Virus record (IMG/VR): IMGVR_UViG_3300009034_000013
Location: 1 to 64,000 of that record
DNA length: 64,000 nucleotides
Direction: 5' to 3' (one strand)
From: a virus
The stretch's first letter is position 1. Every line of letters starts with the position of its first letter. Position numbers and translations under genes: made by a program. A model generated the notes under the pieces. It had not been told where the DNA came from. It was given only the letters and a program-made list of their open reading frames with translations, and ran no database searches. Below, one piece after another: positions 3,410-62,796 of the stretch.

Positions 3410-3691
3410 ATGAATAGATATGAAGAGTTAATAGAAGCGTTATGTGAATTGGTTCATAATATTTGGGCAAAATGGATGAAAGTTAATTTATTAGCAGAAT
3501 GTGAGATTTGGGAAGATGGGAAAAGTTTTGAGCTTATTCATGAAATACCAGAAGAATGTTATGAGAAATGGCAAGAACAAATAATTATGAAATGTAAAGA
3601 TTTACCTGAAAGAGAACAGGAAATAATAAGAGAGAATGTTTTTGAGATATTAGAAAAGGTAACAGAAAAATATTATTTACAGGAAAAATAA
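3410..3691 (+). CDS. small phage protein with IWAKWM motif
   Basis: 93 aa from the ATG at 3410, which has GAGGAAAG upstream. An upstream in-frame TTG at 3377 is less likely. The order NIWAKWMK, then YEKWQEQI, then LPEREQE resembles a widespread small phage protein (IWAxWMK...W...M..PY..L.E.EK...R). That family has no assigned function that I know of. Confidence 0.6.
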   Translation: MNRYEELIEALCELVHNIWAKWMKVNLLAECEIWEDGKSFELIHEIPEECYEKWQEQIIMKCKDLPEREQEIIRENVFEILEKVTEKYYLQEK

Positions 3692-3694
3692 TAA

Positions 3695-3874
3695 ATGGCT
3701 GAATTAAATGAGTTAAAATTTAAATTTGATACCTCTGAAATTGATAGAATAGTAAGGATAACTTGTCTCAATAAAGAATGTAAACATCATGTAGTAAATG
3801 AACAGTATGGAGTATGTAATTTGAAAGTTGTTAAAATAAATGAGAATGGAACTTATATGGGAGATGATAAGTGA
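3695..3874 (+). CDS. small zinc-binding protein, 59 aa
   Basis: Contains C-x4-C-x-H-H and a later Cys (CLNKECKHH...GVC), which looks like a small zinc site. The weak upstream site and tight packing (3 nt after the previous stop) suggest coupled translation. Function unknown. Confidence 0.5.
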   Translation: MAELNELKFKFDTSEIDRIVRITCLNKECKHHVVNEQYGVCNLKVVKINENGTYMGDDK

Positions 3875-25271: not shown

Positions 25272-25796
25272 ATGGCTAATAAAAAAATGTTGACAATAGA
25301 TTTTGATACTTCTGATATGGAAAAAGAATTAAAAAAATTTTTTAATAAAATAGATCCAAAAGCAAGAGAAAAAGGTTTAATGGCATTAGGATTAAAATTA
25401 CTTAATTATACTGTGAATGGTTCACCAAGAGAATCTTCATTACCTCCTATAAGAGATGGTCGATTAAGAGGAAGTGGTAGTGTGTTTGTAGGAAATAAAA
25501 AAATAGGGGATACATTATTTGCCGGAAAAGGAAAAGGAACACCAGTAACTTCTCTTAGAGAAAATAATCCAAATGTTGTTACTATTGGATTTAATACTCC
25601 ATATGCTGCCAAGATGCATGAAAATTTGATTCCTTATGGTGAACAATATGTCCCGGGTGGAAAGGTAAGGGCAAAAAGAACAAAAGAGAATGTAGCTGGA
25701 GTTAGAGGTAAATTTTTAGAAAATCATTTGAAAAACGATAAGAAAGAATTATATGGTTTATATGTAAAAATATATAGAAAGGCAGCTGGAACATGA
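25272..25796 (+). CDS. HK97 gp10-like tail completion protein
   Basis: 174 aa. LKKFFNKIDPKAREKGLMAL, SPRESSLPPIRDGRLRGSG and YAAKMHE followed by a basic tail match the gp10-like neck/tail-completion family (R-L-R-G-S and YA-x-x-H-E). It has a 4-nt overlap with the next gene. Confidence 0.7.
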   Translation: MANKKMLTIDFDTSDMEKELKKFFNKIDPKAREKGLMALGLKLLNYTVNGSPRESSLPPIRDGRLRGSGSVFVGNKKIGDTLFAGKGKGTPVTSLRENNPNVVTIGFNTPYAAKMHENLIPYGEQYVPGGKVRAKRTKENVAGVRGKFLENHLKNDKKELYGLYVKIYRKAAGT

Positions 25797-32305: not shown

Positions 32306-33019
32306 ATGGGCTGTGTTTATGTATTAGAAAATAAAATAAATAACAAACTTTATATAGGACAGACGACAAGATCATTTGAAAAAAGATTTAGACGATATTT
32401 AGAAGAAATAAAAAATGAAAATTGTAGAATGGTAATTACAAGAGCTTTGAAAAAACATGGAAAAGATAATTTTAAAAAACATATATTTTATTTACCCAAT
32501 AAATTATTGGATTATTTTGAAGTTGAAATGATTAAAAAATTAAATACAATAATTCCTAATGGATATAATGTCTGTAGTGGAGGCAATAAAAACAGAGTTG
32601 TACATGAAGTAACAAAAAGAAAGATGTCAAAAGCAAAGAAAGGAAAAAAATTATCTAAAGAACGTATTTTGGAAATGAAGAAATTATGGAAAGATCCAGA
32701 ATATAAAAAGAAGATGAGTCAAATACATAAAGGACAGAAAGCCTGGAATAAAGGAAGATACACGGCCAGAATTAGTAAAAGATGTTTACAATGTGGAATA
32801 AAATTTGAATCATTGAAAAAAGCAAATAGAAAATTCTGTTCAAGAAAATGTTACGGAAAATATTATATAGGAAATAATAATGTTTCTAAAAGAAAAAAAG
32901 TAAGAGAAAAAATAAGCAATAAACTTTCTGGAATAATACGTACAAAAGAAACAAAGAATAAAATAAGTAAAATATTAAAAAAACGATGGCAAAAAAAGAA
33001 GGAGGAAATATATGGCTAA
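32306..33019 (+). CDS. GIY-YIG homing endonuclease
   Basis: 237 aa. CVYVLENKINNKLYIGQTT is the GIY-YIG core, with R26 and the catalytic E lying in the following helices. Two NUMOD3-type DNA-binding repeats (KRKMSKAKKGKKLSKE and later KISNKLSG...KTKNKISK) and a CxxC...CSRKC zinc finger complete the homing type. It sits between tail genes and overlaps the next start by 8 nt, a free-standing mobile gene. Confidence 0.85.
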   Translation: MGCVYVLENKINNKLYIGQTTRSFEKRFRRYLEEIKNENCRMVITRALKKHGKDNFKKHIFYLPNKLLDYFEVEMIKKLNTIIPNGYNVCSGGNKNRVVHEVTKRKMSKAKKGKKLSKERILEMKKLWKDPEYKKKMSQIHKGQKAWNKGRYTARISKRCLQCGIKFESLKKANRKFCSRKCYGKYYIGNNNVSKRKKVREKISNKLSGIIRTKETKNKISKILKKRWQKKKEEIYG

Positions 33020-58996: not shown

Positions 58997-59686
58997 ATGG
59001 ATACTACAAAAAAATTAAAAGTTGGGGAATTGATCCTTGACTGGAATTTATGGCCACGTTATAAGGTGGAATTTTTAGATTCTACGAATATAACAAGAAT
59101 GAAACAAGCTATAAAAGCTGGGTTGAAACTTCCGTCTATTATAGTTAATAAAGCTGATTATAGAATAATAGATGGTTTTCACAGAGTAAAAGTTTATAGA
59201 GATTTATTTGGTGAAGAGCATGATATCACTGTTAAATTGAGAGAATTTAAAAATGATGCAGAAATGTTTATGGAATCTGCCAGACTAAATTCTGTTCATG
59301 GATTACCTTTAAGCCCACAAGATAAAGCTCATGTGATTTTAAGAGCAAGACGATTTAAATATCCTTTTCCAGTTATTGCACAAATAATAGGAATGGATGA
59401 AGATACTTTAAAAAAGTTTTATAAATCAAGAATAGCAAAAACTAAAAAAGGAGAAACTTTAGTTTTGGCGAATGGTGCTTCTGATTTAAGTGATTTGGAT
59501 AGACCATTAACAAATAATGAAGAAATACATGCAAGATCGGCTAATGGATGTAAAGCTTCTGTTAATATAGCTTTATTGTTATATGCTTTAAAAGCTGATA
59601 ATGTTAAACTAACAGAAAAAACAGTGTCAAATCTTATACAACTGAAAGAAGAAATAATAAGGATTTTAAAAAAGGCAGGTGTATAA
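58997..59686 (+). CDS. ParB/Srx-like nuclease-domain protein
   Basis: 229 aa, AGGGGAT upstream. LKVGELILDWNLWPRYKV and VNKADYRIIDGFHRVKVYRD (51-70), with DGFHR, form a ParB-N/sulfiredoxin-type domain. GLPLSPQDKAHVILRARRF and FPVIAQIIGMDEDTL look like the HTH part. Such phage proteins bind DNA and may cleave or use NTPs. It sits between array A and the IS110-like gene, in a TAATG junction with the latter. Confidence 0.75.
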   Translation: MDTTKKLKVGELILDWNLWPRYKVEFLDSTNITRMKQAIKAGLKLPSIIVNKADYRIIDGFHRVKVYRDLFGEEHDITVKLREFKNDAEMFMESARLNSVHGLPLSPQDKAHVILRARRFKYPFPVIAQIIGMDEDTLKKFYKSRIAKTKKGETLVLANGASDLSDLDRPLTNNEEIHARSANGCKASVNIALLLYALKADNVKLTEKTVSNLIQLKEEIIRILKKAGV

Positions 59687-60480
59687 TGTTAAAAGATAAA
59701 AAAGTTGAGAATTCACTGAAAATATTGATAAGACAATATTATGATTATAGTAATGAAAGAATAGCTATGGATGGAAGATTAGGAATTAAGAAAGATGGGG
59801 AATTAAAGAAGAAAACTCCTGATAGAGATGAAATAATGTTGGCTTATTTATACACAAGAAGAAAAGAAATAATAACTGTGGAGAAAGAAATTGAAAAAGA
59901 AATCAGAAAAGAAGTGAACATACATACTCTGTGGAAAGGATTTTTCGAAGATGTTATAGGAGTGGGCCCAATAATGGCAGCGGTAATTATCACTGAATTT
60001 GATATTAAAAAAGCTAATACAGTTTCAAAATTATGGGCTTTTGCAGGGATAAATCCTGGTATAGTATTTGGGAAAACTGGAAAACTTGGTAATATAAAAA
60101 CCTCTAATATTTTGATAAGACAAGATAAAAAAACAAAAGGATTTTTATGTCCATATAATCAGTTTTTAAAGTGTAGATTGTTAGGTGTTTTGGCAGGAAG
60201 TTTTTTAAAAGCATCATCCCCATATAGTAAGTTTTACTATGATTATCGTTTTAGATTGGTGTCCTTAACAGATGAGGAAAAAGAAAAAAGAGGATTATGT
60301 AAGTCAAAAAATCCAACCGATAAAAATAAACCATATGCTAGTCATATAAATAACAGAGCTAAAAGATATATGATAAAGATGTTTTTGAAAGATTTATATG
60401 TTGCGTGGAGGACGTTAGAAGGATTACCAGTTAGAGATCCATATGCTGATGAATATTTGAATAGAAAACATGCTGGATAA
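59686..60480 (+). CDS. IS110-like (Transposase_20 domain) protein without RuvC domain
   Basis: 264 aa. GVGPIMAAVIITEFDI (92-107) and SKLWAFAGINPG (114-125) are the helix-hairpin-helix core of the IS110 C-terminal domain; basic RAKRYMIKMFLKDLYVAWR follows. IS110 recombinases begin with a DEDD RuvC-like domain of ~150 aa, absent here: the first 80 residues are a charged helical stretch. So it is probably a domesticated DNA- or RNA-guided binder, not a full transposase. Array B starts 2 nt after its stop. Confidence 0.7.
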   Translation: MLKDKKVENSLKILIRQYYDYSNERIAMDGRLGIKKDGELKKKTPDRDEIMLAYLYTRRKEIITVEKEIEKEIRKEVNIHTLWKGFFEDVIGVGPIMAAVIITEFDIKKANTVSKLWAFAGINPGIVFGKTGKLGNIKTSNILIRQDKKTKGFLCPYNQFLKCRLLGVLAGSFLKASSPYSKFYYDYRFRLVSLTDEEKEKRGLCKSKNPTDKNKPYASHINNRAKRYMIKMFLKDLYVAWRTLEGLPVRDPYADEYLNRKHAG

Positions 60481-60482
60481 TT

Positions 60483-60600
60483 GAGCGAGCTACAAATAAG
60501 GAGTAAACCATTGTTCTTGAGCGAGCCAGGAGATTTGAGTAAACCAAGAAAATAGAGCGAGTCAAGGGAAGAGAGAAAACCATCTCTATAGAACGTATTA
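60483..60600 (+). repeat. array B: alternating 10-nt repeats with 8-nt spacers
   Basis: R1 GAGCGAGCTA 60483-60492, R2 GAGTAAACCA 60501-60510, R1 60519-60528, R2 60537-60546, R1 GAGCGAGTCA 60555-60564, R2 GAGAAAACCA 60573-60582, closing unit GAACGTATTA 60591-60600. Every spacer is exactly 8 nt and different (caaataag, ttgttctt, ggagattt, agaaaata, agggaaga, tctctata). Same repeats and same type of closing unit (GARCGTATTW) as array A. Confidence 0.9.
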
Positions 60601-60627
60601 AAAAGGCAGGATAAAAAAACCATGCCT

Positions 60628-60655
60628 AATTTGAAAGTTTTTTTCAAATTTTGTG
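60628..60655 (+). terminator. hairpin after array B
   Basis: AATTTGAA pairs with TTCAAATT (about 60628-60650) with a T-rich loop and TTT after it. Just upstream AGGCAGG/CCATGCCT (60604-60627) forms another imperfect stem. Could end the array B transcript. Confidence 0.45.
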
Positions 60656-60690: not shown

Positions 60691-62535
60691 ATGTATGAAA
60701 TAATGAAATTATTTAAATCAGTATTAGTAAAACAGAAAAATGTTACAGGATCTCCTTATATTAGAAAAGGAATATTATATACTCCTGATGTTGGAAATGA
60801 ATATAAGGATATTGATTCTATAATAAATATGGCAGAAAAGATATTTTTACTTTCTGCAAAACAAATAAATAGTTCTTTTCATAAATCATGGCAGAAAATC
60901 AGAGATGTAAATATAGAACAGCTTGTATTAGAGCAAATTATCCATTATATAACTACATATGGTTTTGAATCTCTAAATATTTATAATAGCGAATCTGTAT
61001 ATATTCCAAGAGAGAAATTAGAATTACCAGAAATAGATATAGATAAAATTGAGTTGATTGTTATAAAAGGAATTACTAAAGAAGAATTAAAGGAAAAATT
61101 AATGAAAATGATGTGTTCTGGAATTGCTCTTGATGAAAATACTATTAAAGATATTGTAAATATTATTACTGATAATGATATTGGATTTGATAATGAAGAT
61201 GTTAGAAATATAAAAAATAAAGAAATAAAATCAATTATAATGGATAAATTAAGTTTAGTACCAGATGATCCAGTTGAATATTTGAGATATATTATTTATA
61301 AAATGACAGGTGAAACTTTGTTGATTAAAAATAAAGAGTTAATAGAAAAGATAAAAGAAAATCAGAAAATATTTTCTCTGTTAAAAATTGATGAACATAG
61401 TCAAAGAAAATTAGCCAGTATATTTTATCGATTCAAACCTTTATTTTTAGCAATGAAAGGAACCCCAACAACAAATAAAATAATAAATAGAATAAGAAAA
61501 TTAGCAAAGAAATATCATAGACCGATGAAACAAGATTATCTAAATAATATAACAAATCAAAAGTATATAGATATACTTTTTTTCAAGAAAGAACTTAATA
61601 AGGTTAATATTTTCAGAAAAATAAGATTAGCAAATGCTATAAAATATAGAATGTTAAATAGTGGTTCAATTGTATACAGAATAAGAAATGGAAAAAGTTA
61701 TTCTACAGAAAATAAAAAGAGAGATAAAGATTATTATGATAATATATATGAAATAATAGAAAAGAGTATAAAGGATGATATAAAAGAGATCATAGGAAAT
61801 AAGAAAATATATATACCAGATTATATAAAGTATACTTTACCATCTTCTGAAAAACAATTTTCTGATAATGTTCCATTAGGTACAAATATAACTGTGAAAG
61901 AGAATATGGTTTTTGGGGTGTACTGGAAGAATGTTGATAAAAATAGAATTGATTTGGATTTGTCTTTATTATCTGTTGATAGTAAATTTGGATGGGATGC
62001 AAGATATAGAAATGAAGAAAGAAGTATATTGTTTTCTGGGGATATGACAGATGCTTGTGATGGAGCTTCTGAATTATATTACATAGAAAAAAATAAACCC
62101 GGTATTTATTTAGTGATGTTAAATTATTATAATTATAATAAATACGAAGAAAAAGATATTCCAGTTCCTTTTAGAATATTTATTGCAGATGAAAAAATAA
62201 ATTTGATTGAAAAGAATTATATGGTTAATCCTGAAAATATATTGATAAATATAAATACTGAAATAAAAAGAAAACAGAAATTATTAGGATTAGTAAAAAT
62301 AGATGAAAATAAAAGTATATTTTATTTTTGTGAAACAAACATAGGAATGTCAATAACATCAAGTGATAATGAATATATGAAACATTGCAGAAATTATTTA
62401 AAAGATTTTTATAGTAATTTAATGAATTTAAATGATATGATAGGAGATGTAACTAAGAAAAATGAATGTGATATTGATTTATCACCTAAAAATCTAACAA
62501 AAGATAAATTATTGGATATTATAATAAAGACATAA
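60691..62535 (+). CDS. large orphan phage protein, 614 aa
   Basis: AGGGGA upstream. The N-terminal region has SPYIRKGILYTPDVGNEY and HKSWQKIRDVNIEQLVLEQI. The middle is helical and basic (ASIFYRFKPLFLAMK; IRKLAKKYHRPMKQDYLNN). The C-terminal third has MVFGVYWKNV, RIDLDLSLLS, WDARYRNEERSILFSGDMTDA and ASELYYI, like a DLDLS/SGD domain I have seen in proteins of unknown role, sometimes near TerD-like sequences. The helical repeats recall TROVE-type RNA binders, but no such signature is certain. Directly followed by a four-unit hairpin array. Confidence 0.6.
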   Translation: MYEIMKLFKSVLVKQKNVTGSPYIRKGILYTPDVGNEYKDIDSIINMAEKIFLLSAKQINSSFHKSWQKIRDVNIEQLVLEQIIHYITTYGFESLNIYNSESVYIPREKLELPEIDIDKIELIVIKGITKEELKEKLMKMMCSGIALDENTIKDIVNIITDNDIGFDNEDVRNIKNKEIKSIIMDKLSLVPDDPVEYLRYIIYKMTGETLLIKNKELIEKIKENQKIFSLLKIDEHSQRKLASIFYRFKPLFLAMKGTPTTNKIINRIRKLAKKYHRPMKQDYLNNITNQKYIDILFFKKELNKVNIFRKIRLANAIKYRMLNSGSIVYRIRNGKSYSTENKKRDKDYYDNIYEIIEKSIKDDIKEIIGNKKIYIPDYIKYTLPSSEKQFSDNVPLGTNITVKENMVFGVYWKNVDKNRIDLDLSLLSVDSKFGWDARYRNEERSILFSGDMTDACDGASELYYIEKNKPGIYLVMLNYYNYNKYEEKDIPVPFRIFIADEKINLIEKNYMVNPENILININTEIKRKQKLLGLVKIDENKSIFYFCETNIGMSITSSDNEYMKHCRNYLKDFYSNLMNLNDMIGDVTKKNECDIDLSPKNLTKDKLLDIIIKT

Positions 62536-62796
62536 AAAGTTCCTATGAATAGATTATGGAGGAGAGATCCTCTATTAAATTACTTTTTGTCTTTAAAATA
62601 AAAGCATAGAAAGTTCCTATAAATAAAAAACTTGAAATTTTTTACTTTCTGTTTTTAATGATAAGTCAAAGAAAGTTCCTATAAATAAAAACTATGGGTG
62701 TTTACTTACTTTCCGACTTTTTTAGAAATTATTGGGATCAAAGGAAGTTCCTAAAAATTAAGACTGCAAATCTATTACTTCCCGATTCTTATTTAA
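62531..62796 (+). repeat. four tandem hairpin units with conserved AGTTCCTATAAATA
   Basis: Units begin near 62531, 62605, 62664 and 62737. Each has an outer stem around a conserved TCCTATAAATA-like strand, a variable inner part, and TTACTT(T/C)C(C/T)G. Outer pairs: AAAAAGT/ACTTTTT, AGAAAGT/ACTTTCT, GAAAGT/ACTTTC, GGAAGT/ACTTCC, so bases change together. Inner segments differ; unit 1 has ATGGAGGA-GAGA-TCCTCTAT. This is structured RNA, a protein-binding array or iterons. Confidence 0.75.

Follow-up and report, generated by a model that had tools for sequence, protein, structure and literature searches.

Four short hairpins in tandem accompany the gene for a 614-amino-acid (614-aa) protein in a tailed phage, and the question raised by this locus was whether they are RNAs that work with the protein, elements acting in its own mRNA, or sites in the DNA. 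The window analyzed here was a 64-kb stretch of DNA that opens an IMG/VR record of 83.8 kb. An earlier note on this sequence had described four tandem hairpin units with compensatory stem changes beside an orphan protein and had offered a Y-RNA-like partner, a small-RNA array, antitermination sites, and replication iterons as candidate functions. The four units were confirmed at that place, on the same strand as the 614-aa gene and directly after it (within positions 62527 to 62789), 190 bp 5' of a DnaB-like helicase gene. All four were recovered with R1, a covariance model whose 82 source units all came from other phages and none from the window.

60691..62535, plus strand: gene of the 614-aa partner protein, with helical N-terminal and TerD-fold domains (57 viral and 10 genome-contig homologues; AlphaFold2)
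60691..61806, plus strand: N-terminal helical domain, residues 1 to 372 (motif alignment A3; model pLDDT 82.9, no PDB match)
61867..62394, plus strand: TerD-fold domain, residues ~393 to 568 (Z 9 to 11 to 3ibz, 2qng, 2qz7, and 2kxt; conservation)
62527..62594, plus strand: hairpin unit 1, loop of 43 nt (R1 cmsearch, 35.1 bits, E = 3.6e-8; fold z = -2.3)
62601..62656, plus strand: hairpin unit 2, loop of 31 nt (R1, 42.7 bits, E = 1.4e-10)
62663..62720, plus strand: hairpin unit 3, loop of 33 nt (R1, 52.2 bits, E = 1.4e-13)
62735..62789, plus strand: hairpin unit 4, loop of 30 nt (R1, 47.1 bits, E = 5.8e-12)

Each window unit consisted of a lower stem of 4 to 5 bp, an asymmetric internal loop (A-N-A in the 5' strand, a single C in the 3' strand), an upper stem that covaried and closed with G-U/A-C, the constant strand UUCCU, and a variable loop. 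Compensatory changes in the upper stem were as the earlier note gave them; the lower stem (AAGAC/GUCUU, AAAGC/GUUUU, AAGUC/GACUU, and GGAUC/GAUUC) had been overlooked. Within the strand that had been taken as fixed, UUCCU was indeed invariant, but TATAAATA was exact in only two of the four units, the other two having TATGAATA and TAAAAATT, and it was not constant across the hairpin family described below. Units 2 to 4 followed the stop of the gene, as had been stated for the whole array, but unit 1 began inside the gene end, with the stop codon (62533 to 62535) in its internal loop. Single-sequence folding of the four units was weak (z of -2.3, -1.4, -0.1, and -0.6), and the case for hairpins therefore rests on covariation across phages rather than on stability in the window.

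R1 gave exactly four strong matches over the 64-kb window (next best, E = 0.08), and the whole 83.8-kb record contained no further R1 units. An Rfam scan of the window returned nothing at threshold, nothing relevant up to an E value of 10, and no YrlA match to the units. No tRNA genes were found in the 83.8-kb record and no tRNA module in the four units, and the window array is the short-loop form of the hairpin family. Scans for promoters and terminators gave no more hits than expected. The bare 14-mer AGTTCCTATAAATA was rejected as a search key: with 3 mismatches it occurred 35 times in the window (31 expected), with no enrichment outside the array, and its matches among viral contigs were mostly chance.

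The same hairpins were recognized by eye around the homologous gene in S-CRM01 (five units 5' of the gene and one 3') and in Phass-1 (six units, just 5' of a tmRNA gene identified with Rfam). Units lay 1 to 2.5 kb from the gene, among tRNA and tmRNA genes, in S-CBWM1 and Phass-1, and units 3' of the gene were present in S-CRM01 and at two other loci (L216 and L222). From the neighborhoods of homologues, 126 units at 50 loci were taken. Their consensus read A-G-G-C / A-N-A / [R-R-N-R]-G-U-U-C-C-U-A-U in the 5' half and U-U-A-C-[Y-N-Y-Y] / C / G-C-C-U in the 3' half, with loops of 14 to 115 nt (median, 31 nt). Tandem arrays in relatives contained up to 7 units, most of them without a tRNA module, and 121 of the 126 units preceded the gene on its coding strand, many of them separated from the reading frame by just tens of bases.

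Units had been selected on the upper stem, with slight extra weight given to a CG dinucleotide following it; the lower stem, which apart from this weight lay outside the selection, paired in 119 to 122 of the 126 units. Across an alignment of the 82 short-loop units, the two stems flanking the A-N-A/C internal loop covaried, with 95.8% of cells paired compared to 70.9% in shuffled and 37 to 54% in slid alignments. Double changes occurred in all 10 pairs (243 double-changed cells, versus 67 in shuffles). G-U/U-G cells outnumbered A-C/C-A cells by about 25 to 8, a ratio that fits the gene strand being the RNA.

Linkage of the hairpins and the gene was examined in both directions. At 60 homologue loci, R1 produced 139 matches, all on the gene strand, with at least one unit at 51 of the loci; units were undetected at the other 9, some of which are cut by contig ends. 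Nothing scored above 18.7 bits in a further 909 kb of viral DNA, which had been picked for containing the core sequence. For the reverse test, a hairpin-only pattern blind to the gene was run over 2.9 million viral contigs and returned 80 loci. The gene was in the surrounding DNA at 63 of these, without exception in the same orientation and usually no more than 100 bp away, and elsewhere in the record for 9 more (72 of 80 records in total). Homologues regularly lacking the array and arrays regularly occurring alone, which the earlier note had named as counterevidence, were thus not the pattern found. The 8 blind loci with no gene in the record were fragments or large phages, the unit being mostly inside a tRNA cluster. 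Four large phage contigs (L330, L355, L346, and L320) had units in or near tRNA clusters, and a partner gene went undetected in their records; these perhaps have a diverged partner or are incomplete records.

The partner protein proved not to be an orphan, as had been supposed, but a member of a widespread phage family with a TerD fold in its C-terminal third. Full-length relatives with 24 to 30% identity were found by tblastn in Synechococcus phages S-CRM01 and S-CBWM1 and in the gut phage Phass-1, and a profile search placed homologues at 57 viral loci and on 10 genome contigs. The homologous gene sat midway through a tRNA cluster in S-CRM01 and S-CBWM1 and near a tRNA gene in Phass-1. Pfam and PHROGs gave no significant family for the 614-aa protein, and NCBIfam gave only a weak match, in the TerD region. 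In the AlphaFold2 model (pLDDT 89.5, pTM 0.87), the TerD domain, a beta-sandwich fold, matched 3ibz (Z = 11.2) and 2kxt (Z = 9.2) and carried the conserved acidic (Ca2+) motifs, DLDLS and SGD, with D421, D423, S449-G450-D451, and E461 invariant in 38 sequences. Conserved basic/aromatic motifs (RFKPLFLA, INxIRKLAKxYHxP, and RIRNGK) marked the N-terminal helical domain, which is presumed to be the RNA-binding part.

tRNA genes were near 15 of 59 homologue loci, compared to 2 of 147 other viral loci (Fisher test, P = 1e-7), and some of the units themselves carried tRNA-like modules. A two-stem scan found loops of ≥75 nt in 18 of 265 distinct units. A strict pattern of T arm, loop-closed acceptor stem, and D arm was present in 11 of these 18 long-loop units, versus 2 of 1,800 shuffles; units at L235 and L332 were near misses by eye, and a T arm alone occurred in seven medium-length units. 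Several long units of relatives matched the Rfam YrlA model at 33 to 39 bits (best, 39.2 bits), in four cases across the entire model, with none reaching the gathering score of 69 bits (RF02553). The permuted order of T arm, acceptor, and D arm predicted in about a dozen long units is the topology of YrlA. ARAGORN found no complete tRNA in the rotated long units, probably owing to a disrupted anticodon arm, and the dedicated test of the T-acceptor-D pattern replaced it. A complete, nonpermuted tRNA was also observed in the unit loop on three phage contigs, each an unrotated ARAGORN hit.

L295, positions 3616 to 3709: unit holding a tRNA
L296, minus strand, near positions 1496 to 1590 of the reversed locus: unit holding a tRNA
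L356, positions 2730 to 2827: unit holding a tRNA

The locus, of a kind present in many bacterial viruses, probably encodes a phage RNP made of arrayed Y-RNA-like RNAs and the TerD-linked protein that would bind them; it would work in the manner of the Ro60/Y-RNA particles of animals and bacteria. Four such RNAs of ~55 to 68 nt would be transcribed from the gene strand as separate RNAs, with a common handle composed of the lower stem, the A-N-A/C loop, the covarying upper stem closed by G-U/A-C, and UUCCU. The helical domain of the 614-aa protein may bind this constant handle and anchor the RNA. The variable apex, a short loop in the window and a putative permuted tRNA mimic in the long units of relatives, would be the working end, recruiting or competing for a partner that handles tRNAs or structured RNAs during infection. 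The TerD domain could sense Ca2+ or a small ligand, or it could recruit or dock an effector. Among the functions listed in the earlier note, the Y-RNA-like partner or small-RNA array was the one supported by the gene linkage, the single strand, the RNA covariation, and the YrlA-like tRNA module in relatives. The tRNA genes near homologue loci and the parallel hairpins of phage DUF2828 and cellular RING/TerD genes, described below, also count in favor of the phage RNP. Counting against it are the missing similarity of the protein to Ro60/TROVE and DUF2828 in sequence, profile, and Foldseek comparisons, the lack of a tRNA module in the window units and of a tRNA gene in the record, the 9 homologue loci with undetected units, the 8 array loci with no gene in the record, and the position of the window array, which is 3' of the gene, whereas arrays in relatives are mostly 5'.

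YrlA with Ro60/Rsr constitutes a bacterial Y RNA RNP (Rfam RF02553; Chen et al. 2014, as cited in PMC7790460 and PMC12282133). Like YrlA, the phage units would be small RNAs that have an internally looped stem at one end and, when long, a permuted tRNA at the other, and as with YrlA and Ro60/Rsr, they are encoded beside the gene of their presumed partner. Unlike YrlA, they have a different handle sequence and internal loop and form tandem arrays of up to 7, most without the tRNA module; unlike Ro60, the partner lacks TROVE and vWA domains and has TerD, its C-terminal domain taking the TerD fold where Ro60 has vWA. TROVE (PF05731) gave no hit in 38 family members or in 9 genomes or records with the gene, including S-CRM01, S-CBWM1, and Phass-1. 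Profile alignment (hhalign) to 12 Bacteroidota Ro60 sequences gave a probability of 0.1 to 0.2%. Foldseek and VIA-align searches with the model of the helical N-terminal domain listed no Ro60, although a missing match does not exclude such a fold. The partner as a Ro60 was set aside as unsupported by hidden Markov models, profile-profile comparison, and fold, with the fold search counting as no exclusion. As judged from sequence, the phage system resembles Ro60/Y RNA by design and fails by membership.

A Ro-like phage protein of the DUF2828/DUF7788 type is known from Listeria phage A511 (gp57), and very abundant putative noncoding RNAs map near its counterpart CKA15_055 (PMC12282133). In Listeria phage CKA15 (P100-like), loci within 2 kb of CKA15_055 are the most transcribed of the phage, and Y RNAs were among the explanations proposed by the authors (PMC12282133). 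By analogy, this transcription is the nearest experimental support for expressed loci, coming from a sister type rather than from the TerD-linked type. DUF2828 systems likewise have tandem covarying hairpins 5' of a phage gene, some with a permuted tRNA and often in tRNA clusters. Their proteins, however, match TROVE (97.8% hhalign probability for TROVE versus DUF2828, compared to 0.1 to 0.3% for the phage partner versus DUF2828 in the same test) and have vWA, and their hairpin core is ACAGCAA, not UUCCU. Arrays with the ACAGCAA core were observed at DUF2828 genes of Listeria phage A511, Enterococcus phage TJE1, and Campylobacter phage F372, and two of the hairpins in Enterococcus phage TJE1 hold permuted tRNAs.

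L283, positions 25284 to 25554, minus strand: DUF2828/vWA-linked hairpins
L394, upstream of position 1495: DUF2828/vWA-linked hairpins
L397, upstream of position 1498: DUF2828/vWA-linked hairpins

R1 had no match in A511 or in Lactobacillus phage LpeD, and the arrays of these two phages were therefore treated as separate types.

Three other readings of the window array were weighed. That the units are the known Ro60/YrlA system, with a Ro60 diverged past recognition as the protein, would suit the YrlA-like permuted tRNA module, the full-length YrlA model matches, and the presence of true Ro-like DUF2828 proteins with similar arrays in other phages. This was considered doubtful, given YrlA scores well below the cutoff (33 to 39 versus 69 bits), a handle sequence unlike that of YrlA, the unmatched TROVE, the replacement of vWA by TerD, and the contrast in hhalign probabilities against DUF2828. 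Alternatively, the hairpins may act in cis, the protein binding its own transcript and controlling translation or RNA processing, with no small RNAs in trans. Repeated protein-binding hairpins in a 5' untranslated region are a known route of autoregulation, and the position of 121 of the 126 units, ahead of the gene on its coding strand and often just tens of bases from it, fits such a route. Cis-regulation is compatible with the phage RNP; as the whole story it is unlikely, because units occur 3' of the gene in the window and elsewhere. All four window units lie 3' of the stop, apart from the first bases of unit 1, and S-CRM01, L216, and L222 also have 3' units. The distance of the S-CBWM1 and Phass-1 units from the gene, amid tRNA and tmRNA genes, also tells against an operator, for which tRNA mimics in long units would be needless.

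A function as DNA sites, whether iterons for replication, a hairpin signal in single-stranded DNA, or late promoters, was judged very improbable. Origins typically have tandem repeats, the array is 190 bp before the DnaB-like helicase gene, and TATAAATA, exact in two units, resembles a T4-type late -10 box. However, orientation to the gene is constant in 139 of 139 matches and 63 of 63 array-gene pairs, G-U pairs exceed A-C pairs, the stems are conserved between phages whereas TATAAATA is not, and a tRNA module in the loop would serve no evident purpose in a site of this kind. Replication iterons and antitermination sites, both raised in the earlier note, gained no support, the array being mostly 5' of the gene in relatives, often in tRNA clusters, and fixed in strand.

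The nearest profile relatives of the partner were the cellular MXAN_6230/SCO0854 RING/TerD family (NF041916) and the "cytoplasmic protein" orf166 of Lactobacillus phage LpeD. Alignment of the partner with RING/TerD and LpeD orf166 gave an hhalign probability of 98.2% (E = 5e-14, 539 columns), and the N-terminal domain alone gave 92.3% with the RING/TerD profile, both with a template profile of only 3 sequences. The phage family fell far short of the NF041916 curated cutoff (600 bits), the window protein scoring 12.4 bits, and the Cys-rich RING-like motif of L400 and L401 was absent from it. Both types of protein have a helical part and a C-terminal TerD domain, with tandem hairpins 5' of the gene, but the cellular members are longer, have a zinc/RING-like Cys motif, and differ in hairpin core. 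TerD tellurite-resistance and stress proteins share the fold (Z 9 to 11) and the conserved acidic DLDLS/SGD motifs; in the phage protein, by contrast, TerD is the fusion partner of a large helical domain, and an RNA array is linked to it. At the two Bacteroidota RING/TerD loci examined, repeated hairpins with a UUACUUC core and tRNA halves were observed 5' of the gene; L401 had a tRNA apparently with a UUACUUC-type sequence in place of the anticodon arm, and LpeD orf166 had two hairpins 5' of its gene.

L400 and L401, 700 nt upstream of the RING/TerD gene: RING/TerD-type hairpins
L393, positions 32722 to 32892: RING/TerD-type hairpins

A generic two-part-stem test over LpeD and the two cellular loci gave 9 hits versus 2.4 in shuffles, an excess that is only suggestive because these regions are AT-rich.

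The hairpin/TerD system stands a fair chance of being a Ro60-independent class. Whether the phage and cellular TerD-linked helical proteins together form a Ro60-independent RNA-binding superfamily, with its own Y-RNA-like, tRNA-mimicking tandem RNAs, was put at an even chance; if so, Y-type RNPs would have arisen at least two times, and small RNAs and the handling of tRNAs would be directly connected to the Ter stress system. No prior description of the hairpin/TerD family was found in the open-access literature searched, a scope outside which key Y-RNA reviews fell. The locus type represents a compact, widespread, gene-linked candidate phage RNP that a sharp covariance model detects in unannotated contigs, and sequenced phages with known hosts (S-CRM01 and S-CBWM1) carry it. 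It would provide a different protein scaffold for apparently the same RNA design and a first RNA link for TerD stress proteins. The series from plain hairpin through T arm only and permuted tRNA to whole tRNA in the loop bears on the origin of Y RNAs from tRNAs.

Two other repeats were observed in the window. Four copies of a repeat of ~36 bp occupied positions 60480 to 60640, directly after an IS110-like gene (59686 to 60480; phrog_4285, weak Transposase_20). The first two copies read GAGCGAGC...GAGTAAACC, and this exact two-copy pattern was unmatched in shuffles; the repeat is possibly an RNA array of its own. Positions 3 to 360 held a reading frame of a short, low-complexity degenerate repeat (VSNEVSDKVRNEVWN...).
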